The notes beneath the pieces are model-generated. The model was not told the DNA's origin. It did not search any database and saw nothing but the letters and a program-made list of their open reading frames with translations. From Acidobacteriota bacterium (GTDB taxonomy: Bacteria; Actinomycetota; Acidimicrobiia; Acidimicrobiales; Microtrichaceae): a stretch of 59,535 nucleotides of DNA. Below are positions 40,706 to 49,343 of this stretch, one piece after another. Where the stretch lies: NCBI GenBank assembly GCA_003577145.1, contig QEUP01000032.1:1-59535 (forward strand), written 5' to 3'. The position numbers were made by a program, and so were the translations under genes. How positions within the stretch are numbered: the first letter of the stretch is position 1; the number at the start of each line of letters is the position of its first letter.

Positions 40706-42331
40706 ATGGCGCTCGCACAGGCAGTGGAACCCCCCACCGACAGCTCCGCCGCGCAGGGGAAAACGACCCACAGCATCCGCTTCTGGCTGTTCATGGTCGG
40801 CGCGGTCACCGCGGCCGCCGGTCTGCTGTTCGGGTACGACCAAGGAGTCATCTCCGGGGCCCTCGACTTCATCAAGGAGGACTTCCACCTCAGCACGACA
40901 CTGGTGCAGGTCGTCACCTCCTGGGTCGCGCTCGGCGCTCTTGTGGGGGCGGCGACGGGGGGCTGGATCGCCGACTCGATCGGTCGTCGCCGAGCAGGGA
41001 TGCTCGGAGGGGTCCTCTTCATCGTCGGGGCGCTGATCCAGGCCTTCTCGCTCGACACCGGCATGCTCGTGCTCGGTCGGTTCGTGATCGGCTCCGGCGT
41101 GGGAGTGGCGTCGGTTGCAGCGCCGCTCTACGCCGCTGAGATGGCGCCGTCGAAGCTCCGCGGGCGATTCGTCTCGACCTACCAGCTCGCCATCACGATG
41201 GGCATCCTGTTTGCCTACATCGTAGATGCGATCCTCACGCGAACCGGCAACTGGCGGCTGATGCTGGGTGTCTCGGCAGTCGTGGGCGTGCTGCTCGTGA
41301 TCGGGATGTTCGTGGTCCCCGAGACGGCGCGCTGGCTCATCCGACAGAAGCGCAGCGACGAAGCCCGTCAGACGCTCGAGAAGGTGCGCCCGGCCGAGCT
41401 CGTCGACGAGAAGCTCCAGTCGATCGCCGGCGAGATCGATGAGGAGGAGGTGGGGAGGTTCCGGGAGCTCTTCCAGCCTGCCCTGCGCCGGCCGCTCTAC
41501 ATCGGCGTCACCCTTGCCATCCTGCAGCAGGTGACCGGCATCAACGCCATCATCTACTACGCCGACGAGATCTTCGCCGACGCGGGATTCACATCGGTGG
41601 AGGCCCAGGCGGACGCAACCCTTGTCGCAGTCGGAGTCGTGAACGTCCTCGCCACCCTGATCGCGGTCGCCTTCATCGACAAGGTGGGGAGGCGACCGCT
41701 GCTGTTCGCGGGTCTCACCGGCATGTTCGTCGCTCTCACGGGAGCAGCCCTGGCCTTCCTGTTCATCGACCCCGACATGCATCCGACCGGGCCGAGCGTC
41801 CTCGGCATCGCGACCATGGCGTGTGTGGTGGTGTTCATAGCTTCGTTCGCGTTCTCCATGGGACCGATCACCTGGACGATCATCAACGAGATCTACCCGA
41901 CACGCATTCGAGGGAAGGCGGTCGCTCTGGCCACGAGCGTCAACTGGCTCGGGGTCTTCCTGGTCAGCCAGTTCTTCCTGACCTTCGTCGACACCGTGGG
42001 GACGTCGGTGACCTTCGGGCTGTTCGCGGCAATGACGGTGCTGACCTTCCTGTTCGTGCTCACGAAGGTCCCCGAGACCAAGGGCTACACGCTCGAGGAG
42101 ATCAGCGGGATCTGGGAGTCCCCCGCAGGCAGGCGGCCCGCGCCGGCCGGGGGCATCCGTGGCCTCGCGGTGCCCGACAGCTATGTGACGGACTCCCTCG
42201 ACGCCGTTGCCGAGCGCGACGCGGTCGAGACCCTCGAGCGGCTGGGCAAGACCCCGCCGGCAAGGCCCCGCGGCGACCGCCGAGACGCGGCGACGGTGGA
42301 GGAACCGGGTGGGAACGGATCCGGCGGCTGA
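40706..42331 (+). CDS. Sugar-porter MFS transporter
   Basis: This 541-residue protein with about 12 membrane helices belongs to the MFS sugar porter family: LLFGYDQGVISGALDFI, DSIGRRRAG, PETARWLIRQKR, QQVTGINAIIYYADEIF, DKVGRRPLL and VPETKGYTLEEI. It probably imports a sugar or polyol with protons. The cytoplasmic N-terminus and an extended 70-residue C-terminal tail (Arg/Pro/Gly-rich) flank the core. GGAGGGGG lies before ATG 40706. The stop codon falls in a 12-bp triplication (42318-42353). The substrate is unknown. Confidence 0.92.
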   Translation: MALAQAVEPPTDSSAAQGKTTHSIRFWLFMVGAVTAAAGLLFGYDQGVISGALDFIKEDFHLSTTLVQVVTSWVALGALVGAATGGWIADSIGRRRAGMLGGVLFIVGALIQAFSLDTGMLVLGRFVIGSGVGVASVAAPLYAAEMAPSKLRGRFVSTYQLAITMGILFAYIVDAILTRTGNWRLMLGVSAVVGVLLVIGMFVVPETARWLIRQKRSDEARQTLEKVRPAELVDEKLQSIAGEIDEEEVGRFRELFQPALRRPLYIGVTLAILQQVTGINAIIYYADEIFADAGFTSVEAQADATLVAVGVVNVLATLIAVAFIDKVGRRPLLFAGLTGMFVALTGAALAFLFIDPDMHPTGPSVLGIATMACVVVFIASFAFSMGPITWTIINEIYPTRIRGKAVALATSVNWLGVFLVSQFFLTFVDTVGTSVTFGLFAAMTVLTFLFVLTKVPETKGYTLEEISGIWESPAGRRPAPAGGIRGLAVPDSYVTDSLDAVAERDAVETLERLGKTPPARPRGDRRDAATVEEPGGNGSGG

Positions 42332-42353
42332 TCCGGCGGCTGATCCGGCGGCC
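42318..42353 (+). repeat. 12-bp unit repeated three times across the transporter stop
   Basis: gatccggcggct occurs at 42318 and 42330, and with its last base changed at 42342. The TGA stop (42329-42331) spans the first junction, so a second in-frame TGA follows one unit later. Confidence 0.8.
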
Positions 42354-42394
42354 GTGGGGCCGGCTGTCCCTGGCCGCTCGTACTGTGGTTGTCG

Positions 42395-43390
42395 ATGCTG
42401 TTCCCAGGTCGTTGCCCGGTATGTCAACGCGTCGGTGACTCACCGTGCTCGGAGTGCCTGTCGTGGCTGAGCCTCGAGGGACGCGTCGACCCGCCCGCCG
42501 GGCTCGATCGCTGCTACTGCGTGCTTCGCTACGACGAGCACGGCCGGCGCCTGATAGCCGGGCTGAAGTTCAAGAACCAGCGTGCCGGTCTCGGTCGGCT
42601 CGCCGCCGCGATGGCCCGTCTCGTGTCGGGCGAGGGCAGCGATCTGGTCACGTGGGTGCCGACCACTGCTGCTCGGCGGCGTCGCCGGGGCTACGACCAG
42701 GCCGAGTTGCTGGCCCGGGCAGTGGGCAAGAGGCTGCTCGTGCCGGTCGCGGCCGGACTCGTGCGCGAGCCCGGCCCACCGCAGACAGGCCGCCGGAGGG
42801 CCGAACGCCTGGAAGGGCCGCGGTTGCGGCCGCGACGACCCGTCCGCGGGGCAGTGCTGGTCGTCGACGACGTCCTCACCACTGGAGCGACTCTCACCGC
42901 CGCCGCCGGCGCGCTCAGGAGTGGGGGAGCCTCGCACGTCGTCGGCCTGACCCTCGCGCGTACCCCGCGTCCAGTAGGCGTGGGCGGCCCCCGACGGCGC
43001 GCCCACCCGGTCGGGGTGCCGGGGGGCTCGGTAGTGTCACATCGCGGCTTCGAGGAGGAACAGGTGGAGATATCGGTGAGTGCCCGCCACACGGAGATCC
43101 CGCCTGCATTGCGTGAGGCCGTGGTTCAGAAGGTGGGCCGGCTCGACCGCCTCCTCCCCCAGCTCGATCGCGCCCAGGTGCTCTTCGACGAGGAGAAGAA
43201 CCCACGGATCAGCGACAAGGAGATCTGCGAGGTCACAGTGGAAGGCCGCGGTCATCGTGTCAGGGGCAAGGCTCGTGGTCCTGACGGCTTCGTCGCGGTC
43301 GATCGCGCCGTCGAGAAGCTCGCACAGCAGCTCCACAAGCTCAAGACCAAGCTCGACCGCCGGCACAGGGGTGGAGGCACGATCAGGTGA
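42395..43390 (+). CDS. ComF-like phosphoribosyltransferase fused in frame to HPF
   Basis: The first 210 or so residues are ComF: an N-terminal zinc finger (CPVCQRVGDSPCSEC), YDEHGRRLIAGLKFKNQ, VPTTAARRRRRGYDQAELLAR and the PRPP loop VLVVDDVLTTGATLTAA. ComF family proteins support DNA uptake or have unknown phosphoribosyl roles. The domain ends near LTLARTPR, but no stop follows. The same frame crosses about 30 residues that look like translated intergenic DNA (VGVGGPRRRAHPVGVPGG) into a complete HPF domain. ATG 42395 is preferred over TTG 42389. A lost stop or a sequencing indel could explain the fusion. Usually these are two adjacent genes. Confidence 0.82.
   Translation: MLFPGRCPVCQRVGDSPCSECLSWLSLEGRVDPPAGLDRCYCVLRYDEHGRRLIAGLKFKNQRAGLGRLAAAMARLVSGEGSDLVTWVPTTAARRRRRGYDQAELLARAVGKRLLVPVAAGLVREPGPPQTGRRRAERLEGPRLRPRRPVRGAVLVVDDVLTTGATLTAAAGALRSGGASHVVGLTLARTPRPVGVGGPRRRAHPVGVPGGSVVSHRGFEEEQVEISVSARHTEIPPALREAVVQKVGRLDRLLPQLDRAQVLFDEEKNPRISDKEICEVTVEGRGHRVRGKARGPDGFVAVDRAVEKLAQQLHKLKTKLDRRHRGGGTIR
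43064..43390 (+). CDS. hpf: Ribosome hibernation-promoting factor, short form, internal start
   Basis: This 108-residue protein (EISVSARHTEIPPALREAVVQ, then EEKNPRISDKEICEVTV and VAVDRAVEKLAQQLHKLKTK) is an HPF/YfiA domain that binds the 30S decoding region and idles ribosomes. GTG 43064 has a strong GAGGAGG (43052-43058) with a 5-nt spacer, so it can be made alone although it is in frame with comF. A TAGTGT box lies at 43032-43037. Most Actinobacteria carry a long HPF with a C-terminal dimerisation domain; that domain is absent here. Confidence 0.88.
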   Translation: MEISVSARHTEIPPALREAVVQKVGRLDRLLPQLDRAQVLFDEEKNPRISDKEICEVTVEGRGHRVRGKARGPDGFVAVDRAVEKLAQQLHKLKTKLDRRHRGGGTIR

Positions 43391-43531
43391 GGCGCGCGGT
43401 TTGGCGCTCGCCTGACACGGCAAGCGAGGCCCGAAGGCGTATCGTCGTTGGGGTGACAGCCGTTGCCGCCGACCGATCTCGCTGCGGTCGAGCGCGGTGG
43501 CTCCGAGTGCCCTCTGGTGAGGAGTGAAGCG

Positions 43532-45724
43532 ATGTCGTTTTGCACCAACTGCGGGACCGAGAACTCCGACGAGTCGCGCTTCTGCTCCGACTGCGGGGGC
43601 GTCCTCGAGGCTCCCGCACCGGCGGGCGAGACCCAGGGTGGGGACCTCGGCCAGGGTGGGCCTCCCGGCCATCCGCCGGTACCGCCCGACCCGACTTCCC
43701 CAGGGGCCGGATACGGCGCCCAGCCCCCGCTGGGTGGTGAGCCACCGGGCCCGTTTCCCGCTGCATCACCGCCGGGAGGGGGCCGCCGCAACGGGCTCAT
43801 CATCGGGGCGGTCGTTGCAGTCGTCGTGGTGGCCGCCGTCGTAGCCGGCTTCCTCCTGTTGCGTGACGGCGACGGTCAGAGCCAGATCAGCTCCGAGGAG
43901 ACCACAACCACAACCGTCTCCCCGGCCCGCTCGGGTGAGGGTTGGACGGTGCTGGTCTACATGATCGGGGACACCGACCTGGAGCCCTGGGCGCTCATCG
44001 ACATCGAGGAGATGGCTGCGGCTGCGGGTCAAGCCGAGGACCTGAACATCGTCGTGCTCGCTGATCGCTCCCCGGACTACACCTCAGAGGGCGTCATGAA
44101 CCTCTCCGACTGGGAGACCGGGAAGGTCATCGAGGTCGGTGGGACCGAGCTCAGCGAGGTCGACGACCTCGGTGAGGTCAACATGGGCGACCCCGCCACC
44201 CTCGCCGACTTCATCGAGTTCGGCGTCAGCGAATACCCCGCCTCCAAGTACAGCATCGTCCTCTGGGATCACGGTGCGGGGTGGCCGGGCATGGGCCCCG
44301 ACGAGACCGACGGAGCCGACATGCTCACCACCGCGGAGATCGCCGAAGGCCTGGGCAGCGGGCTCGAGGCAAGCGGGCTCGATCGCTTCGACATGCTCGG
44401 CTTCGACGCCTGCCTCATGGCGAACTACGAGGTGGCTGCTGCGATGGCCCCCCACGCCCAGTACTTGGTCGCATCCGAGGAGCTCGAACCCGGTCACGGG
44501 TGGAACTACGAGGGTCTCGCCGCCGCCGCGGGGGAGGCCGACACACCCGATCTGGGGCAGGAGATCCTCGATTCGTTCCAGGCCCAGGCCGAGAGCGAGC
44601 AGGAGGGTGAGGCGATCACATTGTCGGTGGTCGACCTGGCCCAGATGGACGCGCTACAGGATGCTCTGGGCAACTGGACCGAGGCCGTGGGTGCCGACAT
44701 CGAGACGTATGCGCCCACCCTGGGCGAGGTCCGCGCCCAGGCACTCAGCTTCGGCCGCAGCCCCGATGACACCTTCGACTCGCAGCTGACCGATCTCGGG
44801 TCCATCGTGTCGGGTGTGGGCGAACAGCAGTCGGACCTGGCGGCAGCCTCCGAAGAGGTCAGCGCGGCGCTCGAAGGCATGGTCCTGTCCACCATCAGTG
44901 GCCCGGCCACCAGCGAGGCGACCGGCCTGTCGGTCTACTTCCCGCCGTATCTGGACCTCTACGACCAAGAGCACGCCGAGCTCGAGGGGATCGAGGCCTG
45001 GGAAGGCCTGCTCACCCGCTTCTACGAGGCCGGCGAGGCCATCCCCGAAGCCGAGCAACCGGCCTTCGACACCGAACAGGTGAGCGACCACTTCTTCGAC
45101 GAGGACGGTCTGAACATATTCGCCACCTTCGATCCATCGATCGAAACCAACCTGGCCGAGGCCACCATCTTCTACGGGATCGTCGACGAGACCGACGGGT
45201 CGGTCATGTTCCTCGGCGAGGAGCCGGGCTCCATCCTCGAAGACGGCCAGGCCGCGGCCATCTACGACCTCACCTTCCTCCAGATCTCCGACGGCCAGGA
45301 CACCATGGCTGCCTACGCTGCCATCACCTTCGACGAGGAGAGCGGCCTTTTCCTGGTGGACATCCCGATGGCGTACTACCCCCCGGGTAGCGAGGAGTAC
45401 ATCGACGCACTCCTCGAGCTCGTCGTCGATCCCGAAGACGGGGTGATCCTCAGCGAGACCTACTACGTCGTGGAGGAGGAGGGCACCTTCGGCGAGTTGA
45501 CCGCCGACCCCGAGGGGATCGTCGTGCCGATCGTCGTCAAGCTCTACCCCGACGGGACCTCGGAGTGGGTCCCCACCTCTGACGTCGGGCTCTACGCCGA
45601 CCTGCCCAACCTGAGCTACGAGTTCGTGCCGCTCGATCCGGGTACGGAGATCTATGCCGAGCTCCAGATCACCGACTACGGCGGGAACTTCGACTCCGTG
45701 TTCGTGCAGGACGCTGTTCCCTAG
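43532..45724 (+). CDS. Membrane-anchored clostripain-type (C11) peptidase with N-terminal zinc ribbon
   Basis: This 730-residue protein has a zinc ribbon at the extreme N-terminus (C4, C7, C18, C21 in CTNCGTENSDESRFCSDC), a Pro/Gly-rich linker, a membrane helix (88-110), a Thr-rich spacer and an exported C11 domain. The catalytic dyad is H247 in IVLWDHGAGWPG and C294 in GFDACLMANYE. The last 250 residues form an acidic beta-rich domain. C11 enzymes cut after Arg or Lys; this one would act outside the membrane while the ribbon stays inside. ATG 43532 follows GAGGAG; an earlier start at 43463 has none. The substrate and the ribbon's role are unknown. Confidence 0.88.
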   Translation: MSFCTNCGTENSDESRFCSDCGGVLEAPAPAGETQGGDLGQGGPPGHPPVPPDPTSPGAGYGAQPPLGGEPPGPFPAASPPGGGRRNGLIIGAVVAVVVVAAVVAGFLLLRDGDGQSQISSEETTTTTVSPARSGEGWTVLVYMIGDTDLEPWALIDIEEMAAAAGQAEDLNIVVLADRSPDYTSEGVMNLSDWETGKVIEVGGTELSEVDDLGEVNMGDPATLADFIEFGVSEYPASKYSIVLWDHGAGWPGMGPDETDGADMLTTAEIAEGLGSGLEASGLDRFDMLGFDACLMANYEVAAAMAPHAQYLVASEELEPGHGWNYEGLAAAAGEADTPDLGQEILDSFQAQAESEQEGEAITLSVVDLAQMDALQDALGNWTEAVGADIETYAPTLGEVRAQALSFGRSPDDTFDSQLTDLGSIVSGVGEQQSDLAAASEEVSAALEGMVLSTISGPATSEATGLSVYFPPYLDLYDQEHAELEGIEAWEGLLTRFYEAGEAIPEAEQPAFDTEQVSDHFFDEDGLNIFATFDPSIETNLAEATIFYGIVDETDGSVMFLGEEPGSILEDGQAAAIYDLTFLQISDGQDTMAAYAAITFDEESGLFLVDIPMAYYPPGSEEYIDALLELVVDPEDGVILSETYYVVEEEGTFGELTADPEGIVVPIVVKLYPDGTSEWVPTSDVGLYADLPNLSYEFVPLDPGTEIYAELQITDYGGNFDSVFVQDAVP

Positions 45725-45852: not shown

Positions 45853-45873
45853 AGGATGATCCGGGATCATCCT
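45853..45873. promoter_or_regulatory. Perfect 21-bp palindrome abutting the response-regulator start
   Basis: aggatgatcc (45853-45862) and ggatcatcct (45864-45873) are perfect inverted copies around one G, and ATG 45874 follows at once. A TAGCCT box lies upstream near 45821-45826. It may be a dimer operator, possibly autoregulatory, or an RNA hairpin that hides the AAAGGA ribosome-binding site. Confidence 0.6.
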
Positions 45874-46572
45874 ATGGATGACGATCTACTGGTCCCCGAA
45901 GACTGGTCCGATGAGGCCATCCGGGTCATCATCTGTGATGACCATGCCCTCTTCCGGAGGGGTCTGCTCATGGTTCTCGAAGCCGAGGGTGGCATCGAGG
46001 TCGTGGGAGAGGCCGCCGACGGCCACGAGGCCGTGGCCACCGCGACCGAGCTCACGCCGGATGTGGCACTGATGGACGTACGGATGCCGATCCTGAGCGG
46101 GATCGACGCGACGAGGGCCATCAACGAGGCGGTGCCCGCCTGCAAGATCATCATGCTCACGGTGAGCGACGACGAGGACGACTTGTTCGAGGCCATCAAG
46201 GCCGGCGCGACGGGCTATCTGCTCAAGGAGATCTCGATCGAGGAGGTGGCCGACGCGATCCGTGCGGTCCAGGGCGGCCAGAGCCTGGTCACCCCGTCGA
46301 TGGCATCCAAGCTGTTGGTCGAGTTCACGAACCTCTCCAAACGTGCAGACAGCCCCGATCATGCCGGCACCCCGAGGCTCACCGATCGCGAGCTCGAAGT
46401 GCTCAGGCTGGTCGCCGAAGGGATGAGCAACCGCCAGATCGCCGAGGAATTGGGAATCTCGGAGAACACCGTCAAGAACCACGTGCGCAACATCCTCGAG
46501 AAGCTGCACCTTCACTCCCGCATGGAGGCGGTGATCTACGCCGTCCGAGAGAAGATCCTCGACATCTCCTGA
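45874..46572 (+). CDS. Orphan NarL/LuxR-family response regulator
   Basis: This 232-residue regulator has a receiver domain with acidic pocket D22/D23 ([18 protein letters not shown]), phosphoacceptor D68 ([13 protein letters not shown]), a switch threonine in [11 protein letters not shown] and lysine in GYLLKEIS. A LuxR helix-turn-helix follows (LTDREVEVL-like [20 protein letters not shown], then [16 protein letters not shown]). No histidine kinase gene is adjacent. An ATG at 45856 would add six residues but lies inside the palindrome; ATG 45874 follows it directly. It precedes secA on the same strand. Target genes are unknown, and autoregulation is plausible. Confidence 0.92.

Positions 46573-46628: not shown

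Positions 46629-49343
<2,715 letters not shown>

Follow-up and report, generated by a model that had tools for sequence, protein, structure and literature searches.

In the window, i.e. the whole 59,535-nt stretch of DNA analysed here, comF and hpf are joined in a single open frame, which runs on the forward strand from ATG 42395 to TGA 43388-43390 and consists of a complete ComF, a linker and the N-domain of HPF. The arrangement appears to have arisen when a stop codon was lost by chance, and not to be a bifunctional protein by design. Probably, the stop codon of comF was lost neutrally, the resulting fusion is tolerated, and free HPF is produced from its own promoter and from GTG 43064. If the bases are right, the locus provides a snapshot of the fusion of neighbouring genes in GC-rich genomes, in which one stop loss suffices and the downstream gene survives by its own promoter and start. 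In a literature search, neither a ComF-HPF fusion nor an HPF with an internal start was found.

The ComF-HPF open frame

The whole frame (42395..43390, + strand) comprises 331 codons plus TGA. The open stretch extends from 42389 to 43390 and offers TTG 42389 as an alternative start, with ATG 42395 being the likelier one. The in-frame run-on from ComF into HPF, which was the core of the original prediction, was confirmed by translation and by domain matches, and ComF was indeed found to end at its usual place without a following stop. ComF is encoded by the first 191 codons (42395..42967, + strand), which fit a purpose-built ComF profile over positions 1-191 of 192; against PF00156, the general PRT model of Pfam, their product scores weakly and below the cut-off (22.8 vs. 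26.3 bits). Hallmarks of ComF/ComFC proteins are a four-cysteine zinc finger and a PRT domain with a PRPP loop, as described in excerpts of PMC9005727. In the window protein, CPVC...CSEC was recognized by eye as the cysteine set of the zinc finger and VVDDVLTTGAT as the PRPP loop; the protein has the domains of a ComF/ComFC protein and is predicted to play a role in DNA uptake.

The hpf part (43064..43390, + strand) starts with GTG at 43064-43066 and encodes a short HPF of 108 codons plus stop, which has the N-domain only and matches PF02482 over positions 1-87 of 88 (62.1 bits; cut-off 23.7 bits). Between the two lies the former intergenic gap (42968..43063, + strand), which now forms a linker of 32 codons with a non-coding-like codon score. 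An AlphaFold2 model of the fused chain, calculated from a 44-row alignment, had a mean pLDDT of 89.6 and a pTM of 0.64. ComF is folded confidently in this model, and the linker residues 197-211 and 216-220 had a pLDDT below 50; the linker is thus predicted to be disordered between two folded domains. In the assembled sequence, comF has no stop codon of its own, and every ribosome that reaches its end will necessarily produce ComF-HPF.

Further downstream, hpf is followed by a gene for a zinc-ribbon and clostripain-type peptidase (PF03415; 43463-45724), a response-regulator gene (45856-46572) and secA (46629-49343; named by eye).

Comparison with related genomes

Fusions were sought in overlapping sets of 61 genomes near the window, 40 genomes near genome G037 and 397 genomes of the order, as well as in 33 genomes of the window's family and 396 of the phylum. 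In total, 184 loci were read, 171 of which had a ComF match, and in 87 distinct loci comF was closely followed by hpf in the same orientation; ComF without a downstream hpf was found in 62 rows, which were not reduced to distinct loci and lie in part at the ends of contigs or stretches. A stop codon separates comF from hpf in 85 of the 87 distinct neighbour pairs of the order. The two open frames are those of the window (L001) and of G037 (L004). Among the matches listed for the order set, 21 cover ComF and HPF within a single frame, and two of these, again the window and G037, are stop-free; among those listed for the phylum set, 12 are spanning and only the window is stop-free. The 87 loci are a partly ranked sample that favours in-phase pairs, with phase counts of 35/33/19 leaning to phase 0, so that an excess of open cases would be expected rather than a deficit. 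Two further candidates, L103 (G212) and L104 (G274), were rejected as fusions because the profile had aligned over a TGA at the end of ComF.

The orthologue search that had been proposed as a check thus yielded 85 of 87 pairs with a stop and two without. A stop in all close relatives, which had been named as evidence against the fusion, was present in all three members of the window's family with adjacent genes (G005, G008, G022), but this does not extend to G037 from another family, in which the frame is open. No second genome of the window's genus was present among the 33 family genomes searched.

A tree of ComF and HPF was calculated from 86 of the 87 loci, with L101 being dropped for its partial ComF match. 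The G037 locus clusters with L106, L148 and L102, all of which have TGA, inside a clade of 15 loci (support 0.946). The window locus clusters weakly (0.628) with L038, L118 and L023, all having stops. A single common origin of both open frames was rejected, as the loci are not sisters on this tree, and two independent stop losses are the likelier history. Like the frame of the window, that of G037 is open through the linker and contains an internal ribosome-binding site as well as a -10-like box (TACCAT, 38 nt before GTG). It differs in family and tree branch, in the length of the gap (48 nt vs. 90 nt in the window) and in its HPF, which is long and has a C-terminal domain, whereas that of the window is short. 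With two open frames in 87 loci that are not sisters, there is no fusion kept among related genomes as would be expected of a selected gene fusion.

The same comparison bears on the possibility that the frame is an artefact, i.e. that a wrong base or a small indel at about 42955-43063 hides the stop codon of comF, in which case comF and hpf would simply lie side by side as separate genes. In its favour, the genome to which the window belongs as contig C2 is a draft (4.05 Mb, 68 contigs, 96.6% complete), a TAG is located one frame over at 42975, 7 nt past the end of ComF, the linker contains homopolymers of five C (42988) and six G (43021), and 85 of 87 related loci have the stop. However, the two domains are undamaged and share a reading frame, the unrelated assembly G037 has the same kind of open frame, and the in-frame ComF ending ARTP just before the gap matches those of G037 and G256. 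An error in sequence or assembly is therefore regarded as unlikely.

Chance expectation and coding signal of the linker

The number of open frames that would arise without selection was estimated by combining each comF-hpf gap with the ComF tails of the other loci, with one phase in three being in frame and the tails of L103 and L104 entered by hand as 0. Random tail lengths and phases led to 1.7-1.9 expected open cases, compared to two observed, and at least two open cases arose in 51% of the simulations. Among the tandem gene pairs in 376 kb of the genome, the loss of the upstream stop codon would lead to an in-frame fusion in 27 of 92 cases if the gap measures 1-150 nt, and in 5 of 35 if it measures 61-150 nt. 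By itself, the open frame does not exceed chance expectation.

The linker has a codon score of -0.085 per codon. Coding windows have a mean score of 0.247 (sd 0.171), with 4% scoring as low as the linker, and stop-free non-coding windows have a mean of -0.124 (sd 0.281), with 42% scoring as high. For stop-free windows in a wrong frame, the mean is -0.389, and a score as high as that of the linker was reached by only 3% of them; the real frame of the linker also outscores its two other frames. As the linker beats nearly all stop-free wrong-frame windows, it may carry some weak coding signal.

The suggestion that the fusion has a job of its own was not supported, given its lack of conservation, its chance-level frequency and the non-coding-like linker. 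A selected two-function protein, in which ComF would position the HPF domain or HPF would bring ComF to ribosomes, with the internal start giving free HPF, has in its favour that the motifs are kept in both domains, that the model predicts a confident fold for each of the two domains of the single chain, and that G037, as a second and independent open case, joins ComF to a long HPF. It is nevertheless a decidedly improbable explanation, because in addition to the frequency and the linker score, the promoter box and the ribosome-binding site of hpf have been retained inside the frame, as would be expected for a free protein.

Expression of hpf

A TANNNT motif at positions -55 to -25 of hpf was found in 51 of 87 loci, compared to 11.6 expected from shuffling; the corresponding numbers for a purine-rich ribosome-binding site (-25 to 0) are 66 of 87 loci and 7.2. 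Both signals are retained in the window: a -10-like box, TAGTGT (43032..43037, + strand), is located 32 nt 5' of the hpf start codon, and the ribosome-binding site GAGGAGG (43052..43058, + strand), of the kind seen in these 66 loci, places GTG 43064 5 nt past its AGGAGG. Scanning of 42300-43560 for a sigma-70 consensus promoter and for terminators gave no hit, so the case for the hpf promoter rests on comparison. As the -10-like box and the ribosome-binding site are typical of the order, hpf is probably transcribed on its own.

The internal GAGGAGG and GTG described in the original prediction are thus present and of a kind conserved for hpf, and both a fusion and a free HPF are expected. The idea that both products come from one message was not borne out, because each gene has its own promoter-like box; two messages, a comF mRNA leading to the fusion and an hpf mRNA leading to free HPF, appear likelier.

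According to the neutral stop loss favoured here, comF and hpf would be old neighbours with separate promoters, and the stop codon of comF would have been lost in this lineage via a substitution or a small indel. With stops being rare in GC-rich DNA and the gap being in phase, translation of comF would continue into hpf and cross the hpf promoter and ribosome-binding site on the comF mRNA. The fusion produced from this mRNA would probably be a minor product tied to the expression of comF, and most HPF would arise as a free protein via the promoter of hpf and GTG 43064. ComF-HPF would then be tolerated rather than selected.

Translational coupling, in which ribosomes translating comF would aid initiation at the hpf GTG with the fused product being incidental, is suggested by six of 87 loci (L018, L038, L039, L150, L157, L166), where the two genes overlap, with the end of comF lying just within hpf in a different phase. 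Coupling usually needs termination close to the downstream start, but this is missing in the window. In addition, the gaps between comF and hpf vary from 29 to 616 nt across the loci, and hpf is equipped with a promoter-like box of its own as well as a strong ribosome-binding site. Coupling is thus very improbable as the explanation of this locus.

The putative promoter of comF

Upstream of comF, the motif TGTC-N12-TANNNT was found at one fixed spacing in 59 of 127 genes, compared to 0.38 expected. In 47 of these 59 cases, the first start codon follows 6-7 nt past the box, and ribosome-binding sites are rare upstream of comF (1 of 69 vs. 4.0 expected). Based on the close start codon and the scarce ribosome-binding sites, the comF promoter is apparently of the leaderless type. 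Variants of the PafBC motif listed in excerpts of PMC8151990 have the form TGTC(GG/AG/AC)-N10-TA-N3-T, and 35 of 127 comF genes match one of these exactly, compared to 0.055 expected. PafBC works via the RecA-NDp motif in the DNA-damage response, as reported in excerpts of PMC6789036 and PMC8223512.

In the window, the promoter-like box TGTCCC-N10-TACTGT (42365..42386, + strand), with the start of comF 8 nt downstream, resembles the PafBC (RecA-NDp) motif. It has the right spacing, and at letters five and six it deviates from every PafBC variant in the excerpts of PMC8151990. As 0.92 loose matches, i.e. about one, are expected by chance in the 59.5-kb window, the case for a PafBC box is carried by its position and by the relatives. 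The box of comF is the only one located 3-9 nt before the start of a frame of at least 60 codons in the 376 kb examined, and a box of this type was found in none of 87 hpf upstream regions. From these comparisons, transcription of comF in the order seems to start at a leaderless promoter that carries a PafBC (DNA-damage) motif. HTH_PafC matches over the cut-off were found in the genome on contigs C55 and C8, with the same search also giving matches in Escherichia coli and Bacillus subtilis. Each of these two PafC-type HTH frames (L214, L215) has a second frame beside it that appears WYL-like by eye.

The literature search retrieved papers on PafBC and RecA-NDp, and comF was not mentioned in what these sources provided. 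In Helicobacter pylori, competence genes are raised by DNA damage according to excerpts of PMC2912397, so that a link of comF to damage has a precedent, albeit of another kind. The putative PafBC-type leaderless promoter of comF offers a testable tie between DNA damage and a DNA-uptake gene. A more far-reaching proposal would be a two-headed ComF-HPF, in which damage-induced expression of comF from the PafBC-type promoter ties uptake or repair to ribosome shutdown, and the internal start gives free HPF otherwise; there is only a slim chance that this applies.

Short and long HPF

The HPF encoded beside comF is long in 72 of the 83 loci that are complete (4 of 87 are cut off) and short, with 108-119 codons, in 11 loci including the window. 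The short forms (L001, L006, L013, L035, L107, L109, L116, L157, L166, L172, L176) are scattered over families, which suggests that the dimerisation domain of the comF-adjacent HPF has been lost repeatedly. This C-terminal domain (PF16321) was not found in the window protein, which is not an HPF-long. The only two PF16321 matches of the genome are located in one frame on contig C13, together with a second PF02482 domain. This second HPF (G000:C13:54478-55215; L002) has two C-terminal repeats and is encoded near a short frame whose product, judged by eye, resembles a CBS-domain protein. In mycobacterial RafH, the C-terminal domain alone resembles the HPF-long dimer, as stated in excerpts of PMC10799931; compared to this domain, the two C-terminal repeats make the C13 protein look RafH-like.

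Gene order and relation to known systems

The order comFC - raiA RNA (ModT, RF03072) - raiA/hpf is known from Bacillota and Actinomycetota, and of the ModT loci, 74% are preceded by comFC and 66% are followed by raiA (excerpts of PMC11706538). Of 45 loci scanned, which were chosen mainly for long gaps and not at random, 16 had the raiA RNA in the comF-hpf gap (4/5, 12/20 and 0/20). These 16 loci are L008, L013, L014, L017, L035, L081, L120, L123, L124, L126, L129, L130, L131, L137, L139 and L141. A raiA RNA in the window gap was rejected, as there was no RF03072 match above the gathering score in L001; a genome-wide search gave no match in the window's genome (G000) or in G037, but as it gave none in any control genome either, it does not establish absence. 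The PafBC-like promoter of comF and the raiA RNA seen in the gap of related loci could prove more useful than the fusion itself. The window agrees with the published arrangement in both protein genes and in their order; it differs in having no raiA RNA match between them and in that the genes share one frame.

HPF-long and RafH share the family of their ribosome-binding N-domain with the window HPF. HPF-long requires its C-terminal domain for the pairing of ribosomes (excerpts of PMC5620043), whereas the window HPF is devoid of this domain and would act on single 70S ribosomes without a pairing of the HPF-long type. It corresponds to short HPF/YfiA, which consists of a single N-domain, as does the 108-codon protein of the window. 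In contrast to the 10 further short loci among the 83, this short HPF is preceded by a stop-free comF frame.
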